Origin: Actimicrobium sp. CCC2.4
Lineage (GTDB): Bacteria; Pseudomonadota; Gammaproteobacteria; Burkholderiales; Burkholderiaceae_D
Assembly (NCBI RefSeq): GCF_034347385.1
Contig: NZ_CP133777.1
Coordinates: 3,472,001 to 3,536,000 of the forward strand
Direction of reading: 5' to 3'
DNA length: 64,000 nt
Shown: piece by piece, positions 18,953 to 53,883 of the stretch
Layout of the letters: each line of letters opens with the position of its first letter
Position numbering within the stretch: the stretch's first letter is position 1
Program-made: the position numbers and the translations under genes
Notes under the pieces: generated by a model
Databases searched by the model: none
Seen by the model: only the letters and a program-made list of their open reading frames with translations
What the model was told of the DNA's origin: nothing

Positions 18953-20452
18953 CTATTCGTCCTTGGCGCCGTCGATACCGAGCTCCTGTATCTTGCGCGT
19001 GATGGTATTGCGTCCGATACCAAGACGAATCGCGGCATCATTCTTGCGACCATGCGTGTGCTTGAGCGCTGTCTTGATCAACGCAGATTCGAACAGTCTG
19101 CCCAGCATGCCCATCACGTCCGGCTGACCGGCCGCCAGCATTCTGGCCGCTTCCGTTTCCAGCGAATCCACCCAGGTGTCAGGCTCGACCGCCCCGGTAA
19201 CTGGCGCGCTGCTTGCCGGCGTCAGCGCCCCGCTCCCCTCAGGCATCGATAGCGGTGTCATCACGCCAGGGGGTGGCGTGGCAACTGCAGCAAAACTCCC
19301 GCCGTCGATCAAGTCGCGCGGCAAGTCCTTGACCTCGACGCTTTGGCCCGGTGCCATCACCGTAATCCAGTTGCACAGGTTTTCCAGCTGACGCACATTG
19401 CCCGGCAGATCAAGACCAGTCAGGAACTGCATCGCGCCATCGGTCATTCGCTTGGCATCACCGCCGAGCTGCTTGGCGCTCTGCGTCAGGAAATAACGGG
19501 TCAGGATAGGGATGTCTTCACGCCGTTCGCGCAGGCTCGGCAGCCGGAGGCGAATCACATTGAGGCGGTGGTATAAATCTTCGCGGAACAAGCCTTCCCG
19601 CACCCGCTGCTCGAGGTTCTGATGCGTTGCAGCGATCACGCGTACGTTGGCTTTCATCGGCTGGTGTCCGCCGACCCGATAGAAGTGACCATCGGATAGC
19701 ACGCGCAACAAGCGGGTCTGCAGGTCGAATGGCATGTCGCCGATTTCATCGAGGAACAAGGTGCCGTTTTCGGCTTGCTCAAAGCGACCGCGCCGGCTGG
19801 CTTGGGCACCGGTGAACGCACCGCGCTCATGGCCGAACAATTCGGATTCGAGCAGGTCTTTCGGAATTGCGGCTGTATTGAGGGCGATGAACGGTTGCGC
19901 GGCGCGCGGGCTGTGCTTGTGCAATGCCCTTGCGACCAGCTCCTTGCCGGTGCCGGATTCACCGGTGATCAATACCGTCACGTTCGATTGTGACAAGCGC
20001 CCGATCGCACGGAACACATCCTGCATTGCTGGCGCCTGGCCGAGGATCTCGGGGGTTTCTGCCGGTGCCTGCTCGACACTGGCTTCGCGCAAGCTCTCGT
20101 CGAGCGCGCGGCGAATCAGCTCGACGGCTTTTTCAAGATCGAAGGGCTTGGCCAGATATTCGAAGGCCCCACCCTGGAAGGCTGCAACCGCCGAATCCAG
20201 ATCGGAGAAGGCCGTGATGATGATGACCGGCAGGCCGGGGTACTTGGTCTTGACGGTCTGCAGTAATTCGAGGCCGGAGCCGCCCGGCATCCGTATGTCG
20301 GAAACCAGTACCTGCGGCGTGTCGTGTTGCAATGCGTCGTTCGCATCCCGTGCGTTGGAAAAACTTCTGGTCGCCAGATTTTCGCGTGCCAGTGCTTTTT
20401 CGAGTACCCAGCGTATCGATTCGTCGTCGTCAACAATCCAGATTGGTTTCAT
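18953..20452 (-). CDS. ntrC: Nitrogen regulation response regulator NtrC (NRI)
   Basis: 499 residues from the ATG at 20452 (AAAGAG upstream); an in-frame extension to 20485 is unlikely. Receiver domain with Asp9/Asp10, phospho-Asp52 (SDIRMPG) and Lys102. The sigma-54 AAA+ domain has Walker A GESGTGKE (164-171), the sigma-54 contact loop GAFTGA (211-216) and Walker B TLFLDEIGDMP. A Pro/Ala/Gly linker of about 50 residues leads to a Fis-type HTH (DAAIRLGIGRNTITRKIQEL). It activates sigma-54 promoters under nitrogen limitation. It is paired with ntrB upstream and with glnA beyond. Confidence 0.96.
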   Translation of the reverse strand: MKPIWIVDDDESIRWVLEKALARENLATRSFSNARDANDALQHDTPQVLVSDIRMPGGSGLELLQTVKTKYPGLPVIIITAFSDLDSAVAAFQGGAFEYLAKPFDLEKAVELIRRALDESLREASVEQAPAETPEILGQAPAMQDVFRAIGRLSQSNVTVLITGESGTGKELVARALHKHSPRAAQPFIALNTAAIPKDLLESELFGHERGAFTGAQASRRGRFEQAENGTLFLDEIGDMPFDLQTRLLRVLSDGHFYRVGGHQPMKANVRVIAATHQNLEQRVREGLFREDLYHRLNVIRLRLPSLRERREDIPILTRYFLTQSAKQLGGDAKRMTDGAMQFLTGLDLPGNVRQLENLCNWITVMAPGQSVEVKDLPRDLIDGGSFAAVATPPPGVMTPLSMPEGSGALTPASSAPVTGAVEPDTWVDSLETEAARMLAAGQPDVMGMLGRLFESALIKTALKHTHGRKNDAAIRLGIGRNTITRKIQELGIDGAKDE

Positions 20453-20518
20453 AGTCTCTTTGGTGTCCACGTCATGTAACAGCACTCGTGGTGCTTGCTA
20501 CGATCCGCCCCCTGCTGA

Positions 20519-21592
20519 TCAAGGTAGCGGTATCAATATCCTGAAATCCGTGCATCCCGGCTGACTCTCGCATTCGATCACACCCGAATGCTGCTGAATG
20601 AAAGTCTGGGCCAGTGTCAACCCCAATCCGCTGCCACCTTCTCTTCCTGAGACTAGCGGGAAGAAAATACGGTCACGAATCTCGGTCGGAATGCCGGGGC
20701 CATTGTCGAGGATATGCAAGTCTAGTGCCAGCCGATAACGTACCTTCGCCAGCGTCACTTGTCGCGCCACGCGCGTCTGTAAAGTGAGCACCGCATCGCC
20801 CAGACGGATCCGTTCGGAGAGTGCCTGGGCGGCGTTGTGGGCAATGTTCAGGACTACCTGGATCAGCTGCTCCTTGTCGCCCCGGAAGTCAGGTAAGGAC
20901 AGATCATAGTCACGCCGGATTTCCAGGCCGCTTGGAAATTCGGCAACCATCAGGCTGCGGACACGTTCGCAGACTTCGTGGATATTGACGTCGCCGACGA
21001 TGTGCGGGCGCCGGTGCGGCGCGAGCAAGCGGTCGACCAAGGTCTGCAACCGATCCGCCTCCTTGATGATGACCTGGGTGTATTCGCGCAGCTCTTTCAG
21101 GTGGCGCTCGGGCAGCTCGAGTTCTAGCAATTGCGCCGCACCGCGAATGCCACCCAGCGGGTTCTTGATTTCATGTGCCAGGTTGCGGATGAGCTCCTTG
21201 TTCGCTTGGCTCTGGTCGAGCAACCGTTCTTCGCGGTCGAGCTTGAGTTGCTGGACGTTTTCACGCATCTCGATGAGGACCGGCGAATCCGGATTATCCA
21301 GCGCTGTCACCACCACATGGACTTGCAAGGACTCGCGCCCGATCCGTTGCAGTGTCAGATCCTGGCGCTTTTCGGCGAACTCGTGCGCGACGGCTTGCCT
21401 GAACACAGTTTCCAGCTTGTCGCCATTGACGAACAGTCCGAATAGCAGATGCTGGTCCAGCAGACGGAACGAGCACTCCAGCATATTTTCAGCGGCGGCG
21501 TTGGCATAGGTAATACGGCCTTCGGCGTCGAGGATGACGACAGCCGACGCCAGCAGGTCGAGACCTGCAACGGAATTAACAGAGATTTTCAC
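20519..21592 (-). CDS. ntrB: Nitrogen regulation sensor kinase NtrB (NRII)
   Basis: 357 residues, no membrane segments. An N-terminal PAS domain (about 8-115) contains ILDAEGRITYANAAAENML. The phosphorylated His140 sits in NLAHEIKNPLGGIRGAAQLL, the hallmark H-box of NtrB. The ATPase domain has N-box NIAHNAAQAL, DNGPGIP and GGSGLGLTLAQTFI. It phosphorylates NtrC when nitrogen is scarce and, with PII, dephosphorylates it when nitrogen is ample. The gap to ntrC is 66 bases and both are on the same strand. Confidence 0.96.
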   Translation of the reverse strand: MKISVNSVAGLDLLASAVVILDAEGRITYANAAAENMLECSFRLLDQHLLFGLFVNGDKLETVFRQAVAHEFAEKRQDLTLQRIGRESLQVHVVVTALDNPDSPVLIEMRENVQQLKLDREERLLDQSQANKELIRNLAHEIKNPLGGIRGAAQLLELELPERHLKELREYTQVIIKEADRLQTLVDRLLAPHRRPHIVGDVNIHEVCERVRSLMVAEFPSGLEIRRDYDLSLPDFRGDKEQLIQVVLNIAHNAAQALSERIRLGDAVLTLQTRVARQVTLAKVRYRLALDLHILDNGPGIPTEIRDRIFFPLVSGREGGSGLGLTLAQTFIQQHSGVIECESQPGCTDFRILIPLP

Positions 21593-23857: not shown

Positions 23858-23873
23858 AGCAGATTCCATGCCA
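23858..23873 (-). promoter_or_regulatory. Sigma-54 promoter of glnA
   Basis: On the minus strand the sequence is TGGCATGGAATCTGCT, against the consensus TGGCACG-N4-TTGCW. GG and GC have the exact 10-base spacing. The predicted transcript start is near 23847, giving a leader of about 125 bases. Confidence 0.75.
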
Positions 23874-45410: not shown

Positions 45411-45426
45411 GCGCAAACGTTTGCGC
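45411..45426 (-). promoter_or_regulatory. RbsR operator with nearby -10 element
   Basis: GCGCAAACGTTTGCGC, a perfect 16-base palindrome around the LacI-family core CAAACGTTTG, 52 bases before rbsB. A TAGTAT on the minus strand (45433-45438) just upstream could be the -10, which places the operator at the transcription start. Confidence 0.85.
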
Positions 45427-45538
45427 CTGCGGATACTACACCGGGAACCAGCGCTCATACCGATCAATTGTCGACACTATCACCGTCGCGGCGCCGCACC
45501 GGCGACTGCACCGACACCGGCAATGGCTACTGATGCGC

Positions 45539-45570
45539 TGCACCACGGCAAGCCACGATGCACCACGGCA
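45539..45570 (+). promoter_or_regulatory. Direct TGCACC repeats, possible NtrC enhancer of the liv-amidase operon
   Basis: TGCACCACGGCA occurs twice, at 45539-45550 and 45559-45570, exactly 20 bases apart. TGCACC is the NtrC half-site. They lie about 70-100 bases before the predicted sigma-54 start. The partner half-sites (GGTGCA) are poor. Confidence 0.5.
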
Positions 45571-45614
45571 TCCGTCATCGCGCGGAAAAACCGGCCTTTT
45601 TTCGGGTTTTTTGA

Positions 45615-45630
45615 TGGCATGTCTATTGCA
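45615..45630 (+). promoter_or_regulatory. Sigma-54 promoter of the liv-amidase operon
   Basis: TGGCATGTCTATTGCA matches the consensus TGGCACG-N4-TTGCW at all fixed positions but one, with the correct GG-N10-GC spacing. Predicted start near 45641, leader about 92 bases before the GTG of the binding-protein gene. Confidence 0.8.
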
Positions 45631-45663
45631 TTGCACTATTCAAGTCGCTTGAATTTAATGCAA
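45626..45663. promoter_or_regulatory. Nested inverted repeat over the liv promoter start
   Basis: TTGCATT...AATGCAA (outer) encloses ATTCAAG-TCG-CTTGAAT (inner). The dyad runs from the -12 element to about +23, where a bound repressor would block sigma-54 polymerase. The XRE-cupin regulator at the operon's end is a candidate binder. Confidence 0.5.
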
Positions 45664-45733
45664 ACCACACGTATTTTAGGCAAGCTTCCTGATAGCAACC
45701 ATTTCGGATGACTGACCAACAAGGGAAAACACC

Positions 45734-46903
45734 GTGCGCCATTTACCTTCCGCAATATCCACATCAGCCCTGGCCGTCGGCCTGGCCCTGCTGGCCGCTC
45801 CGGCGCTAGCCAAGGATGTCGTCAAGATCGCCTTCATCGGTCCGCTGACCGGTGGCGTCTCGTCGATCGGACTGGGCGGGCGCAATTCCGCCGACCTGGC
45901 CGTCCAGCTGCGCAATGCTGATCCGAAATCAAAATACACCTATCAGCTGGTGGTCCAGGATGACGAGTGCAAACCGAACGTCGGCGTGCAGGTCGCCACC
46001 AAGGTGGCTGCCGACAACGCGATCATTGCGGGCGTCACGCACTACTGCTCGGCAGTGGCGATGGGTACTGTCGGCGTCTATAACCGCTTCGGCCTGCCGG
46101 TGGTGGTCTGGGGTGCGGTGCTGCCGGACATCACCTACGCCAACAACTACAAGGACGTGCACCGGATCAACGGCACGATGGTCAACCAGAGCGAAGTCGC
46201 GGCCAAGTTCATGACCGGCCTGGGCTACAAGAAATTCGCGATCATCCACGACACGACCGACTACGGCAAAGGCCATAACAAGTACTTTTCCGAGAGTCTG
46301 AAAAAAGATGGCGGCACCATCCTCGCGACCTTCGGCGTGACTGCCGACCAGCAGGATTTCAGCAGCGAGCTGACCAAGATCCGTGAACTGAAGCCCGACG
46401 TCGTCTATTTCGGCGGCCTCACGCCGCTGGGTGTGCGCATCCGCACGCAGATGGACAAGCTCGGCATCAAGGCCGAATTCGAAGGCACCTCCGGCATCAA
46501 GTCCGACGCTTACATCCAGGGCCTGAGCAAGGACCTGGCCGAAGGATCGGTCGCCTTCCTCGAAGGCGCGCCATGGGAAAAACTGCCGGGCGGCCTGATC
46601 TTCGCGGCCAAGTACCAGCAACAAAAATATGGCGAGCCACCGGAAGCCTACGGCCCGTTTGCCTACGCCGCTGCCAACCTGATCATCGACGCGATCGAAA
46701 AGGTCGGTCCGGACCGCAAGAAAGTGCGTGCCGTGCTCAACGCCACCAAGGACGTCGACACCATCATCGGCAAAGTCACCTTCGACGACCACCGCCAGAA
46801 CATCGTGCCGCTGGTGACCAAGTATGTGGTCGAGGATGGGAAGTGGATGATTTGGGAAGACAGTGCTTATGGCAAGGGGACGCGGAAATTGCCGGGGTTG
46901 TAG
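45734..46903 (+). CDS. livJ: Branched-chain-amino-acid-type ABC transporter substrate-binding protein
   Basis: 389 residues from a GTG with AAGGGA before it. Signal peptide about 1-26 (PALA). The mature protein is a type I (LIVBP-like) binding protein: VVKIAFIGPLTGGVSSIG, AIIAGVTHYCSAVAMGTVGV, IIHDTTDYGKGHNKYF and the late PEAYGPFAYAAANL. The operon also encodes an amidase and an M20-type amidohydrolase, so the ligand is more likely an amide or ureido compound than leucine. The gene symbol denotes the family only. A sigma-54 promoter lies upstream. Confidence 0.85.
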   Translation: MRHLPSAISTSALAVGLALLAAPALAKDVVKIAFIGPLTGGVSSIGLGGRNSADLAVQLRNADPKSKYTYQLVVQDDECKPNVGVQVATKVAADNAIIAGVTHYCSAVAMGTVGVYNRFGLPVVVWGAVLPDITYANNYKDVHRINGTMVNQSEVAAKFMTGLGYKKFAIIHDTTDYGKGHNKYFSESLKKDGGTILATFGVTADQQDFSSELTKIRELKPDVVYFGGLTPLGVRIRTQMDKLGIKAEFEGTSGIKSDAYIQGLSKDLAEGSVAFLEGAPWEKLPGGLIFAAKYQQQKYGEPPEAYGPFAYAAANLIIDAIEKVGPDRKKVRAVLNATKDVDTIIGKVTFDDHRQNIVPLVTKYVVEDGKWMIWEDSAYGKGTRKLPGL

Positions 46904-47062: not shown

Positions 47063-47104
47063 ACTCTGGCAAAAGCGGGCCGGCACATCAACAAAAGGAA
47101 AACC

Positions 47105-48034
47105 ATGAGCATGCTGGGCCAATACATTTTCAACGGACTGATGCTAGGCGTGATCTACGCCATGGTCGCCGTTGGCTTCACGCTGTTTTTCGGCGTGCTG
47201 GATGTCATCAAGTTTTCGCACGGCGATACGCTGATGGTAGGCGCCTTCGCCGGCCTCGCCACTTCGCTGTGGGTCGTCTCGCTCGGCATCACCTCACCAT
47301 GGGTGCAACTCGCCGCAGTGGTAATCAGCGCCGTCTGCGTCACCGGATTGCTCGGTGCCGCCATTGCGCGCTTCCTGATTTTGCCGCTGCATAAGGCACC
47401 GCCACTGAACACGCTGCTGGCCACGCTGATGCTCGGCACCGTGTTGCGCGAAGCGGTGCGGCTGTTCTATCCGGACGGCTCGAATCCGAAACCCTTTCCG
47501 GCCTTGCTGCCCACCGACACGCTCGCATTCGGCAGTTTCATCCTGCGCGCCGACAGCGTGATCCTGCTCTTGAGCGGCCTTGCCGCGATCGCCGGCGTGC
47601 ACTTCCTGATCACCCGCACCCGCCTCGGCATGGCAATCCGCGCCGTCGCGCAGGATGGCGAAACCGCGCGCCTGATGGGCATCAATTTTGAAGCCGTCGT
47701 GCTGATGACCTTTGCGCTCGGCTCCGGCCTCGCGGCTCTGGCCGGCGTCATGAACGGCCTGTACTACAGCGAAATTAATTTCAATGTCGGCCTGCTGCTC
47801 GGCGTGATCGGCTTCGCTGCCGCCATCCTCGGCGGGCTCGGCAATATCTACGGCGCGATCATTGGCGGCTTCCTGTTCGCCGGCTTGCAGGTGTTCGGCA
47901 GCGTCGCCCTGCCCGCCTTGTTTCCCCATATCGCCAGCGCCTACAAGGATGTCTTCGCCTTCGCGGTAGTCATCATCCTGATGGCCTGGAAACCCACCGG
48001 CCTGATCGCCGAGAAATCCAGCGAGCGCGTCTGA
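47105..48034 (+). CDS. livH: Branched-chain-type ABC transporter permease LivH
   Basis: 309 residues from the ATG at 47105 with AAGGAAA before it; an upstream in-frame ATG at 47006 lies within the repeat region and is rejected. About eight hydrophobic segments. LivH motifs: GVIYAMVAVGFTLFFGVLDV, FSHGDTLMVGAF, MAIRAVAQDGETARLMGIN (ATPase contact) and AAILGGLGNIYGAIIGGFL. It pairs with LivM. Its stop overlaps the livM start (TGATG). Confidence 0.94.
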   Translation: MSMLGQYIFNGLMLGVIYAMVAVGFTLFFGVLDVIKFSHGDTLMVGAFAGLATSLWVVSLGITSPWVQLAAVVISAVCVTGLLGAAIARFLILPLHKAPPLNTLLATLMLGTVLREAVRLFYPDGSNPKPFPALLPTDTLAFGSFILRADSVILLLSGLAAIAGVHFLITRTRLGMAIRAVAQDGETARLMGINFEAVVLMTFALGSGLAALAGVMNGLYYSEINFNVGLLLGVIGFAAAILGGLGNIYGAIIGGFLFAGLQVFGSVALPALFPHIASAYKDVFAFAVVIILMAWKPTGLIAEKSSERV

Positions 48035-49197
48035 TGAATACACTGTCGATTTTCAAAAAACCGGGCATCGTGCTGGCCATCGCCACCCTCGTCATCACCG
48101 TCTACATGTGGCTGTTCCTGCACGCCGAAACCCAGCTCGGCGTGGCGATCCTGCTCATCACCGCTGTGGTCGCGACCATCCTGTCGCGCCGCAGCGGTGC
48201 CACGCAACAGCTCGAACAATCCGCTGCCCGCCGTCCCGGACTGGCGCGGCTGTGGGCGCTGGGCGGCATCCTTGCGCTGGTCGCTGCGTTCTATAACGAA
48301 CACTTCGCGCTGCTGATGATTTGCACGGTGCTGCTGTACACCACTGCGTGCCTGGGCCTGACACTGCAGTTCGGTTTTTCGGGTGTGGCCAACTTTGCCG
48401 GTGCTGCTTTTTTCGGCATCGGCAGTTACACCACCGCGATCATGGTGACCCACACCGGCGTACCGCACCTGCTGGTCATCGTGCTGTCGGGCCTGATCGC
48501 AGCACTGATCGGCTCGCTGCTGATCCTGCCGGTGCTGCGTACGCGCGGCCATTACGCGGCGCTGGTAACGATCGCCTTCGGCATCCTGTTCAAAACCTTC
48601 ATCGAGGTCAACGACGTACTCGGCGGGCCGCAAGGCTTGCAGGTGCCGGGCATGAAGCTGTTCGGGCTGGCCTTCAATGACGGCTTCAGCCTGTTCGGCA
48701 TCGACTTCTCGTTTTATGTCAGCTATGCGCTGCTGAGTCTGGCGATGGCAGCCGGCGTGTTTGTCATCGTCAAAGCGCTGGAGCGCTCATGGATAGGCCT
48801 GAGCATGGATGTCGTGCGCACCGACGAAACCGCCGCCGCCACCTTCGGCCTGCACATCGCGCGCTGGAAAGTCGTGGCCTTCATGATGGGCAATTTCTTT
48901 GCCGGTATCGCCGGTAGCGTCTACGCGATGCTGATGGGGTTTGTCGCGCCGAACAACTTCACCTTTGCCGATTCGCTGCTGATGCTGTCGATTGTGATCC
49001 TGGGCGGGCTGGGCAATCCGCTCGGCCTGATCCCGGCCGCCATCATCGTGCTGGTGCTGCCCGAAAAACTGCAGTTCATCCAGGAATACCGCTACCTGTT
49101 TTATGGCGTGCTGGTGATCGCGATCCTGCTGTTCCGGCCCGATGGCCTGTTACCGCGCAAGACGCGCCTGTTCTTTCAACGCGGAGAAAAAGCATGA
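48034..49197 (+). CDS. livM: Branched-chain-type ABC transporter permease LivM
   Basis: 387 residues, about ten hydrophobic segments, longer than LivH as usual. Motifs: FGFSGVANFAGAAFFGIGSY, GIAGSVYAMLMGFVAPNNF and LGGLGNPLGLIPAAIIVLVL. The EAA-like loop (AAATFGLHIARWKVVAFMMG) contacts the ATPase. The stop overlaps the livG start by 4 bases (ATGA). Confidence 0.94.
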   Translation: MNTLSIFKKPGIVLAIATLVITVYMWLFLHAETQLGVAILLITAVVATILSRRSGATQQLEQSAARRPGLARLWALGGILALVAAFYNEHFALLMICTVLLYTTACLGLTLQFGFSGVANFAGAAFFGIGSYTTAIMVTHTGVPHLLVIVLSGLIAALIGSLLILPVLRTRGHYAALVTIAFGILFKTFIEVNDVLGGPQGLQVPGMKLFGLAFNDGFSLFGIDFSFYVSYALLSLAMAAGVFVIVKALERSWIGLSMDVVRTDETAAATFGLHIARWKVVAFMMGNFFAGIAGSVYAMLMGFVAPNNFTFADSLLMLSIVILGGLGNPLGLIPAAIIVLVLPEKLQFIQEYRYLFYGVLVIAILLFRPDGLLPRKTRLFFQRGEKA

Positions 49198-49964
49198 TCA
49201 CCGTGACCGGCCTGACGATGCGCTTCGGTGGCCTGACCGCGCTCGACCACCTGAACCTGCACATCAACGAAGGTGAAGTCCTCGGCCTGCTCGGACCGAA
49301 CGGCTCCGGCAAGACCACCTTCTTCAATGTCCTGACCGGCCTGTACAAGGCCAGCGGCGGCAGCATCCTGCTCGATGGCGCCGAAGTCATCGGCCAGTCG
49401 CCGCAATCGATCTATCGTAGCGGCGTGGCGCGCACCTTCCAGCGCTCGCGTCTGTCGCTGCCGCTCACCGTATTCGACAATATCGTGATCGGCGACTACC
49501 AGCACATGCAGCGCGGGCTGGTCTTCAACCTGTTCCGGCGCAAGGCCTTCCGGGCCGAATACGATGCCTATGTCGAGAAAGTCACCGCGCTGCTCAACAT
49601 CTTCAGCCCGCCGCTGGTGGCGCAACTGTTCGAGCCGGTCGAGACGTTCTCAATGATAGACCGGCGTCGCATCGAAGTCTGCCGCGCACTGATCAGCCGG
49701 CCGCGCCTGCTGCTGCTCGACGAACCCTCGGCCGGCATGACCCACGATGAAACCGATGCACTGATGGACGACATTCTGCAGGTACGCAGCAAATTGCCGG
49801 GCCTGTCGGTGGTCCTGATCGAGCACCAGATGAATGTCATCAAGCGCATCACCGACCGCTGCCTTGTCCTCAACTACGGCCAGAAAATCGCCGAAGGCAG
49901 CTACGCAGAGATCACTGCCGATCCGGCGGTCCAGACCGCTTACCTCGGGGAGGAAACCGCATGA
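49194..49964 (+). CDS. livG: ABC transporter ATP-binding protein LivG
   Basis: 256 residues. Walker A LLGPNGSGKTTFFNVLTGLY, the Q-loop region GVARTFQRSRL and Walker B RLLLLDEPSAGM with switch His in LIEHQM. The usual LSGGQ signature is replaced by the odd TFSMIDRRRIEVCRAL: the Ser is kept (FSM) but GGQ is changed to MID. This region normally contacts the ATP of the partner subunit. Start overlaps livM and its stop overlaps livF. Confidence 0.92.
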   Translation: MITVTGLTMRFGGLTALDHLNLHINEGEVLGLLGPNGSGKTTFFNVLTGLYKASGGSILLDGAEVIGQSPQSIYRSGVARTFQRSRLSLPLTVFDNIVIGDYQHMQRGLVFNLFRRKAFRAEYDAYVEKVTALLNIFSPPLVAQLFEPVETFSMIDRRRIEVCRALISRPRLLLLDEPSAGMTHDETDALMDDILQVRSKLPGLSVVLIEHQMNVIKRITDRCLVLNYGQKIAEGSYAEITADPAVQTAYLGEETA

Positions 49965-50677
49965 CTACGCACACCGCACTCACTGTCAGGGGAGTCACCA
50001 CCGGCTACGACAAAGTCAATGTGCTGCACGATGTCAGCATCGATGTCGCGCCCGGCAAGATCACTTGCATCCTCGGTGCCAACGGTGCCGGCAAGAGCAC
50101 GCTGATCCGCGCCATCCTCGGCCTGACGCCGCCGCGCCAGGGTGACATCCACTGGCAGGGTCGCAACCTGGCCGGTGAAAAAACCCACAAGATTATCGCC
50201 AGCGGCATCGCCTGCATTCCCGAAGGACGCAAGGTATTTCCGCGCATGAGCGTGGCCGAGAATCTGGCGCTGGGCGCCTTCCTTGAGACCGATGCGGCCA
50301 AGGTGCGCGCGCGGCTGGCGCGGGTCTACGACATCTTCCCGCGCCTCAAAGAACGCGCTGCGCAACTGGCCGGCACGATGTCCGGCGGCGAACAGGCGAT
50401 GGTCTCTATCGGTCGCGGGCTGATGGCCGAACCGACGCTGTTGATCATCGACGAGCCATCGCTGGGCTTGTCGCCGCTGTTCGTGAAAGAGAATTTCAAC
50501 GTCATCAAGCAGATCAATGCGCTCGGCATCACGGTGCTGCTGGTCGAACAGAATGCGCGCCAGACGCTGGCCATTGCGCACCACGGTTACGTGCTGTCGC
50601 AGGGTCGCGTGGTGGCGCAGGGAACGGCCGAGGCACTGGCCGGCAATGACGAAGTACGTGCTGCGTATTTCGGTTAA
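49961..50677 (+). CDS. livF: ABC transporter ATP-binding protein LivF
   Basis: 238 residues. Walker A ILGANGAGKSTLIRAILGL, signature MSGGEQAMVSIGRGLMAEP, Walker B LLIIDEPSLGLSP and switch His region VLLVEQNARQT. This is the partner ATPase to LivG and, unlike LivG, keeps a canonical signature motif. The start overlaps the livG stop (ATGA). The amidase gene follows after 24 bases. Confidence 0.95.
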   Translation: MTTHTALTVRGVTTGYDKVNVLHDVSIDVAPGKITCILGANGAGKSTLIRAILGLTPPRQGDIHWQGRNLAGEKTHKIIASGIACIPEGRKVFPRMSVAENLALGAFLETDAAKVRARLARVYDIFPRLKERAAQLAGTMSGGEQAMVSIGRGLMAEPTLLIIDEPSLGLSPLFVKENFNVIKQINALGITVLLVEQNARQTLAIAHHGYVLSQGRVVAQGTAEALAGNDEVRAAYFG

Positions 50678-50701: not shown

Positions 50702-51982
50702 ATGAACAACATCCTCACCCTCCCCGCCCGCGAACTGGTGCGCCGCATCAGCCAGCGCGAGATCACTGCCGAAGCCGTGGTACGCGCCTGCACCGAGCGC
50801 ATCCTGGCCGGCGACACGCGCATCCGCGCGTGGCAATTTTTCGATCCGGCGCTGGCGCTGCAGCAAGCCCGCGCGCTCGACGCCGGCACTACCGTCGGCG
50901 CGCTGCACGGCTTGCCGATCGGGGTCAAGGACTTGATGGATACGGCCGACATGCCGAGCACCTACGGCTCGTCGCTCTACGCCGGCCATCGTCCGGGCAC
51001 CGACGCCGCCGTGGTCGCGATGAGCCGGATCGAAGGTGCGATCGTGATGGGCAAAACCGTCACCACCGAGTTCGCCACGTTCCAGCCGGGGCCGACCTGC
51101 AATCCGCGTGCGCCGGTCGATCAACCGCACACGCCGGGTGGCTCGTCGAGCGGCTCGGCAGCCGCCGTTGCTGCCGGCATGGTACCGCTGGCGTTCGGTT
51201 CGCAGACCGCCGGATCGATCATCCGGCCGGCCGCGTATTGCGGCATCGTCGGCTACAAACCGACCCACGGCACCTTGCCGCTGGCCGGCATCAAGCCGCT
51301 CTCGCCCAGCCTTGATACGGTCGGCGTGCTGGCGCGCAGCGTCGACGATGCGGCCTTCTTTGTCGGCGTGCTGGCGCGCTTGCCACTGCACGTCGTCGCG
51401 CATGGGCGGCTGCGTGTCGGTATCTGCCATACACCGCACTGGGACCGCGCCGGTGATGACTCCCGCGCCGCACTTGCGCAGGCCGCCCGCCTGCTCGAAC
51501 AGGCCGGTGCCGTGCTCACCGACCTGGTTCTGCCGGCAGCCTGCAACGGCCTGACCGCCGCACAAATCGACATCATGGGCTACGAAGCCAGCGCCGCCTT
51601 TGCACCGGAATTACTGACTGGCGCGGCCGGCCTGAGCGATGCCTTCAAGCACTTGCTGGCGTCCGGACTGGCCGTAGATGGTGCCCGTTTTTTTGCTGCG
51701 CAAGCGCTGGCGGCCAACGCACGACTGGCGGTCGATGCGCTGTTCAACCATGTAGATATCGTGCTGGCACCGAGCACCGAAGGCGAAGCACCGGCCGGCA
51801 TTGCGGCCACCGGCGACCCCGTATTCAATCGCCTGTGGACCCTGCTCGGCAATCCGTGCGTGCATGTGCCGACCGGCACCGGCAGCACCGGCATGCCCAT
51901 CGGCGTAACCCTGATCGGCCCGCGCCGGGGTGACGCCCGGACCATCGCGGCAGCACGTGAACTCGAACGCCAGCTGTCATGA
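50702..51982 (+). CDS. Amidase-signature family hydrolase
   Basis: 426 residues. The catalytic triad of the amidase-signature family is visible: Lys in LPIGVKDLMDTA, Ser in the glycine/serine stretch GGSSSGSAAAVAAG and the nucleophile Ser in GSQTAGSIIRPAAYCG. It hydrolyses a carbon-nitrogen bond of an amide; GatA, AtzF and allophanate hydrolases belong here, but no subfamily is clear. It is shorter than GatA. It sits inside an operon with an ABC importer and an M20 hydrolase, so it probably releases ammonia or an amine from the imported compound. Its stop overlaps the next start by 4 bases. Confidence 0.9.
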   Translation: MNNILTLPARELVRRISQREITAEAVVRACTERILAGDTRIRAWQFFDPALALQQARALDAGTTVGALHGLPIGVKDLMDTADMPSTYGSSLYAGHRPGTDAAVVAMSRIEGAIVMGKTVTTEFATFQPGPTCNPRAPVDQPHTPGGSSSGSAAAVAAGMVPLAFGSQTAGSIIRPAAYCGIVGYKPTHGTLPLAGIKPLSPSLDTVGVLARSVDDAAFFVGVLARLPLHVVAHGRLRVGICHTPHWDRAGDDSRAALAQAARLLEQAGAVLTDLVLPAACNGLTAAQIDIMGYEASAAFAPELLTGAAGLSDAFKHLLASGLAVDGARFFAAQALAANARLAVDALFNHVDIVLAPSTEGEAPAGIAATGDPVFNRLWTLLGNPCVHVPTGTGSTGMPIGVTLIGPRRGDARTIAAARELERQLS

Positions 51983-53268
51983 ACTTACCGGAGAACCCAT
52001 TGAATGTGATGCACCCTGCTGCCGAACAGGCACAAGACCACGTCAACAACGACAGGCTGCAAAACGCCATCGCCGCCCTGGCCCACTTCGGCGGTCGCAC
52101 TGATGGCGGTGTCGCGCGCGAAACCCTCACTGCCATCGACCTGGCGTCGCGCCGCTATCTGATCGACCAGGCCCGCGCGCTTGGTTGCGAGATCTCGGTC
52201 GACGCATGCGCCAATCTTTTTTTCCGGCGCGCGGGTAGCCATCCCGAACTGCCCGCAGTACTGACCGGCAGCCATGGCGACACCCAGCCGGTCGGCGGCA
52301 AGCTCGACGGTGCGTATGGCGTGCTGGCCGGACTCGAAGTCATCGCCGCGCTCAATGATGCCGGCATCACGACCTTGCGCGCGATCGACGTGGTGGCCTG
52401 GACCAACGAAGAAGGCAGCCGCTTCGGCCCCGGTGCGATGGGCTCGAGCGCGCATGTCGATCCGTCGCGGCTACCGGGCTACCGGACGGCGCGCGATAGC
52501 GACGGCATCTTCTTCGGCGATGCGCTCGACAACGCGCTGGCCGAAGTGGCCGATCTGCCGCGCCGCCCGATGCCGCTGCCGCTGGCGGCCTGCATCGAAC
52601 TGCATATCGAACAGGGACCGGTGCTGGAACGCGCCGGCATCGCGCTCGGCGTGGTCACCGGCATCCAGGCGGTGCGCTGGTTCACGGTCACCTGTACCGG
52701 CATGGCAGCACATGCCGGCACCACGCCGATGGATGAACGGGGCGATGCGATGGCCGCTGCAGTAGGGGTCGCACAACAGCTGTACCAGCAGGCCGCGCGC
52801 GAATCGGCGCATCAGTTGCGCCTGACGCTGGGCCGCTGGCAGGTCAGTCCGAACTCGATCAACACCATCCCCGGCAAGGTCACGTTCAGCGTCGACATGC
52901 GCTGTGGTGATGACGCAGTACTGGAACGTTTCGAGCACGCGCTGCGCGCGCTGTTGCAGAACGCGGTCTGGCGCGGCAGCATCACGGTCGAACGGATTTT
53001 TTTGCGTGCGCCTACGCATTTTCCGGAGTCGATGCTGGGCCTGATCGAACAGGGTTGCACGCGCGCCGGCAACGCCGCGCCGCTGCGGCTGACATCGGGT
53101 GCGTTCCACGACGCGATGTATCTGGCCGGGCATTGTCCGACCGCGATGATTTTTGTGCCGAGCAAAGGCGGCATCAGCCACAATGCCGCCGAAGCCACCG
53201 ATCCGCATGACCTGTTGCTGGGCGTGCAGGCGCTGGCGTATGCAGTGACGGCGCTGGCCAGCCGGTAA
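51979..53268 (+). CDS. M20-family Zn-dependent amidohydrolase (allantoate/N-carbamoyl-amino-acid type)
   Basis: 429 residues. The M20/AllC-HyuC metal ligands are present: TGSHGDTQPVGGKLDGAYG (His, Asp), TNEEGSRFGPGAMGS (Glu), ELHIEQGPVLE (His), and the late SHNAAEATDP (His). The dimerisation domain (about 215-330) carries TGMAAHAGTTPMDERGDAM. Relatives cleave allantoate, N-carbamoyl amino acids or beta-ureidopropionate, releasing ammonia and CO2. The exact substrate is unknown; with the upstream amidase and importer it points to a ureido or carbamoyl nitrogen source. Confidence 0.9.
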   Translation: MNLPENPLNVMHPAAEQAQDHVNNDRLQNAIAALAHFGGRTDGGVARETLTAIDLASRRYLIDQARALGCEISVDACANLFFRRAGSHPELPAVLTGSHGDTQPVGGKLDGAYGVLAGLEVIAALNDAGITTLRAIDVVAWTNEEGSRFGPGAMGSSAHVDPSRLPGYRTARDSDGIFFGDALDNALAEVADLPRRPMPLPLAACIELHIEQGPVLERAGIALGVVTGIQAVRWFTVTCTGMAAHAGTTPMDERGDAMAAAVGVAQQLYQQAARESAHQLRLTLGRWQVSPNSINTIPGKVTFSVDMRCGDDAVLERFEHALRALLQNAVWRGSITVERIFLRAPTHFPESMLGLIEQGCTRAGNAAPLRLTSGAFHDAMYLAGHCPTAMIFVPSKGGISHNAAEATDPHDLLLGVQALAYAVTALASR

Positions 53269-53286: not shown

Positions 53287-53883
53287 TTGACTACTTTGCG
53301 CAAACGGGTGCTGGGGATAGCACCCGGCAGCACCACCGCAACGCCCGCCACGCTGGGATTACGACTGCGCCATGCCCGGCTGGTCGCAGGCCTGACGCTG
53401 TTGCAGCTGGCGCAAAAAGCCAGCTGTTCGGAAAGCCTGATTTCAAAAATCGAACGCAGTCTCGCAAGCCCGTCACTGACCATGCTGCACCGGCTGGCAG
53501 TGGCGCTCGACACCAACATCGGCATCCTCACCAGCGAAGACGGACCACCCGACAGCCCGATCATCCGGCATGACGAACGTCCGGTACTGAAGGCCGGCGG
53601 CATCGCGCTGGAGCGGCTGGTGCTGCCAAAACGGGGTGGGCTATTGCAGGCCAATATCCATGTGGTGTTGCCCGGAGAAGGCAGCGATGGCCTGATCGAA
53701 CATAGCGGAGAGGAAGTCGGCTACGTGCTCGAGGGGACGCTCGAACTGACGCTGGGGGAGACCCGCTACGAGCTCGGTCCCGGCGACGCGTTTGCGTTTC
53801 CGAGCCATGTGCCGCACGGGTATCGCAACACCGGGAATAATGTCGCGCGGGTGTTGTGGGTGAATTCGCCGGCGACGTTTTAG
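53287..53883 (+). CDS. XRE-family regulator with C-terminal cupin domain
   Basis: 198 residues from a TTG with GAGAGGA 6 bases before it; no in-frame ATG serves. Residues about 24-78 are an XRE helix-turn-helix (LGLRLRHARLVAGLTLLQLA, SESLISKIERSLASPSLTML). Residues about 120-190 are a cupin (GEEVGYVLEGTLELTLGETR, GDAFAFPSHVPHGYRNTG). PuuR/HipB-like regulators of this type sense small metabolites and usually control the operon they sit in. It ends the liv-amidase operon, and its stop overlaps the convergent pldA stop. Confidence 0.9.
   Translation: MTTLRKRVLGIAPGSTTATPATLGLRLRHARLVAGLTLLQLAQKASCSESLISKIERSLASPSLTMLHRLAVALDTNIGILTSEDGPPDSPIIRHDERPVLKAGGIALERLVLPKRGGLLQANIHVVLPGEGSDGLIEHSGEEVGYVLEGTLELTLGETRYELGPGDAFAFPSHVPHGYRNTGNNVARVLWVNSPATF

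Follow-up and report, generated by a model that had tools for sequence, protein, structure and literature searches.

A probable two-key promoter, with NtrC/sigma-54 activation and XRE-cupin repression, at an eight-gene uptake and hydrolysis operon of Actimicrobium sp. CCC2.4

Introduction

What controls an operon that appears to import a small compound and to hydrolyse it? The question is raised by eight plus-strand genes of Actimicrobium sp. CCC2.4, which lie in a stretch of 64,000 nucleotides (contig NZ_CP133777.1, positions 3,472,001 to 3,536,000). This whole stretch is called the window here, and all coordinates refer to it. The genes are as follows.

45734..46903, plus strand: LivK-like substrate-binding protein, first gene of the operon
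47102..48034, plus strand: LivH-like permease
48034..49197, plus strand: LivM-like permease
49194..49964, plus strand: LivG-like ATPase
49961..50677, plus strand: LivF-like ATPase
50702..51982, plus strand: amidase-signature enzyme, whose closest solved relative is malonamidase E2
51979..53268, plus strand: M20 enzyme of the hydantoinase/carbamoylase family (TIGR01879 above cut-off)
53287..53883, plus strand: XRE-cupin regulator, last gene of the operon and proposed repressor (domain matches, co-occurrence)

Gene spacing suggests that the eight genes are co-transcribed and where the operon ends. The same genes in identical order were found in close to 30 Burkholderiales loci, and in more distant relatives the importer is paired with an amidase and a different M20 enzyme. 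We consider it probable that the operon is controlled by a two-key promoter, at which NtrC and sigma-54 RNA polymerase would activate transcription and the XRE-cupin protein would repress it. The parts of this putative switch are conserved in many related bacteria, which makes it well supported, although it would be a conventional one.

Results

The sigma-54 promoter

45615..45630, plus strand: sigma-54 (-24/-12) promoter TGGCATG-N4-TTGCA (genome pattern count, conservation, genus alignment)

The sequence at 45615-45630 is TGGCATGTCTATTGCA, with the exact GG-N10-GC spacing that a sequence-only reading had reported there. The strict pattern TGGCAYG-N4-TTGCW has six matches in the 4.15-Mb genome versus none for the reversed control. 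Another of the six stands before a prpB-like gene whose divergent neighbour encodes PrpR, a known sigma-54 setting. Within the window, 45615-45630 has the top sigma-54 score (18.6), and the runner-up is the glnA promoter (16.4). Conservation was assessed in 80 loci that encode a relative of the operon's binding protein. Among these, a strong sigma-54 site precedes the match by 80-210 bp in almost all Burkholderiales loci, while those of Alphaproteobacteria, few exceptions aside, are without one. The site is likewise absent from three Burkholderiales loci that have no XRE-cupin gene (L040, L049 and L050). In the alignment of the genus, the promoter, the palindrome O1 described below and the next 20 bp are nearly invariant, and the flanks have diverged. 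Sigma-54 control of the operon is thus strongly supported by conservation. Transcription from sigma-54 promoters is RpoN-dependent and begins about 11-12 bp past the GC. By this geometry the start would lie at about 45641. A simple scan of the intergenic region found neither a sigma-70 promoter nor a terminator.

As a side observation, CGGGTT and GGGTTT each occur before the -24 element in 10 of 27 upstream regions, against about 1.4 expected. They lie at about -33, -22 or -12, that is, in steps of one helical turn. The element is found at 45602-45609 of the window and also in L016, L024, L026, L028, L031, L032, L034-L037, L039 and L078.

Half-sites for the proposed activator

45539..45550, plus strand: NtrC-type half-site 1, TGCACCACGGCA (GCACCA core conserved in the genus)
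45559..45570, plus strand: NtrC-type half-site 2, TGCACCACGGCA (20 bp after half-site 1, a spacing common to all genus members)
18953..20485, minus strand: NtrC (NR-I), proposed activator (TIGR01818, 664.9 bits, cut-off 558.6)
20519..21592, minus strand: NtrB (NR-II) (domain search)

The two copies of TGCACCACGGCA noticed earlier are exactly 20 bp apart, start to start. The genome matches TGCACCR-N13-TGCACC exactly at only two places, one of them the pair at 45539-45570, and two direct GCACCA half-sites 20 bp apart are conserved in four genomes of the genus. Cupriavidus (L024-L026) has TGCACCGA repeats with the same 20-bp spacing. For motif statistics, a reduced set of 27 Burkholderiales upstream regions was compared with dinucleotide shuffles. 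TGCACCR was seen 18 times versus 2.3 in the shuffles (maximum 6). The canonical dyad GCACC-N5-GGTGC was the best of 16 spacings (8.04 versus 6.85-7.59), and the shuffles at N5 reached at most 7.30. Perfect dyads of this form are present in Polaromonas, and several others match at 9/10 positions. In the enhancer range, the full dyad TGCACCAnnnTGGTGCA occurs in full or near-full form in relatives, whereas the genus of the window has only direct half-sites there. Genome-wide there are seven perfect NtrC dyads, none of them near the promoter at 45615-45630.

The window also encodes the glnA-ntrB-ntrC operon, and the glnA and glnK promoters of this genome carry similar imperfect NtrC half-sites. 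NtrC, which the sequence-only reading had proposed, is therefore the likely activator. The statistics across the order and the half-sites at the nearby glnA argue for it; the want of a full dyad in the genus stands on the other side. At the glnA promoter itself, we observed the sigma-54 site TGGCATGGAATCTGCT on the minus strand (23858-23873), with the imperfect half-sites TTGGTGC, TGCACCA and GGCACCA upstream.

A probable operator over the predicted start

45638..45654, no strand: operator O1, ATTCAAGTCGCTTGAAT, 15/16 to the family consensus ATTCAAGTnACTTGAAT, a probable XRE-cupin site over the predicted start
45658..45674, no strand: weak second operator at +20, ATGCAAACCACACGTAT, 10/16 to the consensus and invariant in four genus members

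O1 is a 17-bp palindrome that spans about -3 to +14 relative to the predicted start, and its core TTCAAGNNNCTTGAA occurs only once in the genome. Across Burkholderiales with a close XRE-cupin homologue, the palindrome lies 4-10 bp past the -12 element. Of 399 genomes of the order, only 2 contain the composite signature of sigma-54 site and palindrome, both times at the operon under study. As a function of the offset from O1, the operator score peaked at +41 (mean 8.9; all-offset mean 4.1, sd 1.0), with a second peak at +20 (7.8). Many relatives have a further operator copy at +41; the genus of the window has lost this copy, which in the window itself has decayed to 5/16 of the consensus.

A nested inverted repeat from -15 to +23 had been described here, which corresponds to 45626-45663 for a start at about 45641. 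Its location is confirmed, but the significant part is the inner palindrome at 45638-45654, and a putative repressor operator is a better reading of the repeat than a nested dyad. The outer arms were considered as a separate structure and rejected: their placement around the inner palindrome is asymmetric, they lack conservation beyond the genus, and the right arm is accounted for by the start of the weak +20 copy. The literature searched gave nothing relevant on the operator sequence or on XRE-cupin proteins at sigma-54 promoters.

The palindrome and the XRE-cupin gene

The XRE-cupin protein, encoded last in the operon, has HTH_31/HTH_3 and Cupin_2 matches above cut-off. Of 43 loci that have an XRE-cupin gene, 41 also have the palindrome, and of 23 loci that lack the gene none does; these are raw counts, which overstate independence because many of the loci are related. 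On the tree of the binding protein there are four independent supported contrasts, of which on average 3.7 are in the expected direction and none in the opposite one; a sign test on this kinship-corrected link gives p 0.125, the contrasts being too few for significance alone. In three loci (L041, L046 and L047) the recognition helix of the XRE-cupin protein reads VSI instead of CSE, and the palindrome is diverged or absent. In Alphaproteobacteria whose XRE-cupin gene lies directly upstream, the palindrome is present and the sigma-54 site is not, so the two elements are separable.

Two Pseudomonas keep the sigma-54 site, but the same slot is occupied there by another palindrome, which takes the form ATACCATCWTGTATACAAGATRGTAT. 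In Pseudomonas JUb42 this palindrome is ATACCATCTTGTATACAAGATAGTAT, and a GntR-FCD gene follows the amidase gene. Taken together, the co-occurrence, the co-variation of the helix and the operator swap in Pseudomonas give good support to the XRE-cupin protein as a local repressor acting via O1, in agreement with the local repression suggested earlier.

Separately, three Pseudomonas loci (L052, L172 and L176) have a sigma-54 site and, at the start, a long palindrome, ATACCATC-TGTATACA-GATGGTAT; in L052 a GntR-FCD gene comes after the amidase gene.

Discussion

We propose the following working of the promoter. Sequence and conservation show the sigma-54 site, the palindrome and its link to the XRE-cupin gene; the role of NtrC, the negative sign of regulation, the inducer and the substrate are inferred. 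The first key would be general: under nitrogen limitation, phosphorylated NtrC would bind the GCACC half-sites, which precede the -24 element by about 55-75 bp, and activate the sigma-54 RNA polymerase sitting at 45615-45630. The second key would be specific: an XRE-cupin dimer on O1 (45638-45654), aided by the weaker phased site at +20, would cover the transcription start and keep initiation blocked; binding of the substrate, or of a product of its breakdown, to the cupin domain would lift the block. Since the XRE-cupin protein is encoded by the last gene of its own target operon, it would be autoregulated. The ABC transporter would then import an amide or carbamoyl compound, and the amidase and the M20 enzyme would hydrolyse it to release nitrogen.

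Other readings of the same elements have to be weighed. The sigma-54 promoter and the XRE-cupin operator may be as proposed while the activator is another enhancer-binding protein that recognises direct TGCACCR repeats 20 bp apart. The genome encodes ten strong sigma-54 activator domains, and the genus and Cupriavidus have exact direct repeats instead of inverted dyads; however, the perfect dyads of Polaromonas, the 9/10 matches elsewhere, the optimum at N5 and the similar half-sites at the genome's own glnA and glnK promoters all speak for NtrC, and we regard a different activator as rather unlikely. It is distinctly less likely still that the TGCACC repeats serve a divergent sugar-transport operon and not the promoter at 45615-45630. 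In the genus of the window, the operon does share its intergenic region with a minus-strand RbsB-like gene, but where relatives lack the divergent gene, the same repeats or dyads still precede their sigma-54 site, and a LacI-type palindrome, distinct from the repeats, is closer to the RbsB-like gene. This perfect palindrome, GCGCAAACGTTTGCGC at 45413-45428, is itself likely to be the operator of the minus-strand sugar-transport operon.

With respect to O1, the XRE-cupin protein might be an activator or a dual regulator instead of a repressor. In Alphaproteobacteria the palindrome comes without a recognised sigma-54 site and may there act with either sign; at the operon under study, however, a protein bound at O1 over the predicted sigma-54 start would block it, and the characterised XRE-cupin relatives are repressors (PMC7901475), so that we give this reading little chance. 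An mRNA hairpin in the 5' leader, in place of a DNA operator, is scarcely credible. Transcription from the predicted start would take in part of the palindrome, but would leave out some of its left arm; the folding of the leader is not better than that of shuffles (z 0.43), and the palindrome goes with the XRE-cupin gene even where leaders and distances are unrelated between loci.

The slot just past the -12 element may be modular, so that unrelated local repressors are exchanged there while the sigma-54/NtrC key is retained. The slot would contain phased XRE-cupin operators (0, +20 and +41 bp) in Burkholderiales, whereas in Pseudomonas it would contain another palindrome, which a GntR-FCD repressor would probably recognise; Alphaproteobacteria would have the XRE-cupin key without the sigma-54 key. 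We offer this idea tentatively, as somewhat more doubtful than not. The pairing of the XRE-cupin protein with ATTCAAGTnACTTGAAT provides a specific and testable regulator-operator pair for a widespread, uncharacterised transporter-amidase operon, together with what appears to be an exchange of repressors at a single sigma-54 promoter, and the identity of the inducer would reveal the nitrogen compound that these bacteria scavenge.

The proposed pairing of an NtrC/sigma-54 key and a local repressor resembles what is already known from the hut and rut operons, and the repressor family here differs. HutC belongs to the GntR family, and the rut operon is repressed by RutR. In the Pseudomonas hut operon, NtrC or CbrB acts at a sigma-54 promoter together with the HutC repressor (PMC8871633). 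As proposed here, a general nitrogen-state activator on a sigma-54 promoter is combined with a substrate-responsive local repressor, and transport is coupled to nitrogen-releasing catabolism; in contrast to hut, the repressor would be an XRE-cupin protein, and the genes and the substrate differ. No sign of CbrB was seen at the operon under study. The Escherichia coli rutABCDEFG operon is a sigma-54/NtrC target with a divergent rutR (PMC8743547). It shares the coupling of such a target to a local regulator, but RutR is a divergently encoded TetR-family protein and the pathway is pyrimidine breakdown.

In P. aeruginosa, the XRE-cupin proteins PauR, PsdR, PA0535, PA1359, PA1884, PA4987 and ErfA act as local repressors on genes for uptake and breakdown, and their palindromic sites lie beside their own genes; RpoN or sigma-54 is not mentioned in that report (PMC7901475). 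They resemble the present regulator in domain architecture, in the adjacent target, in the palindromic site and in the transport and breakdown of small nitrogen compounds, whereas the regulator here is encoded as the last gene of its target operon.

A role in nitrogen scavenging, as suggested by the sequence-only reading, fits the genes: an ABC importer, an amidase similar to malonamidase E2 and an M20 enzyme of the hydantoinase/carbamoylase family. The literature on malonamidase and NtrC yielded nothing on the substrate of the operon. Malonamidase E2 (PDB 1ock) is the nearest solved relative of the amidase, but the operon adds the carbamoylase-family M20 enzyme and a five-part importer, and the activity here is a predicted one. 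On a Bradyrhizobium plasmid (L175, 8001-14944), a copy of the same transporter type adjoins genes for a phenylacetaldoxime dehydratase and a carbon-nitrogen hydrolase, neighbours which hint that the transporter family serves C-N hydrolases.
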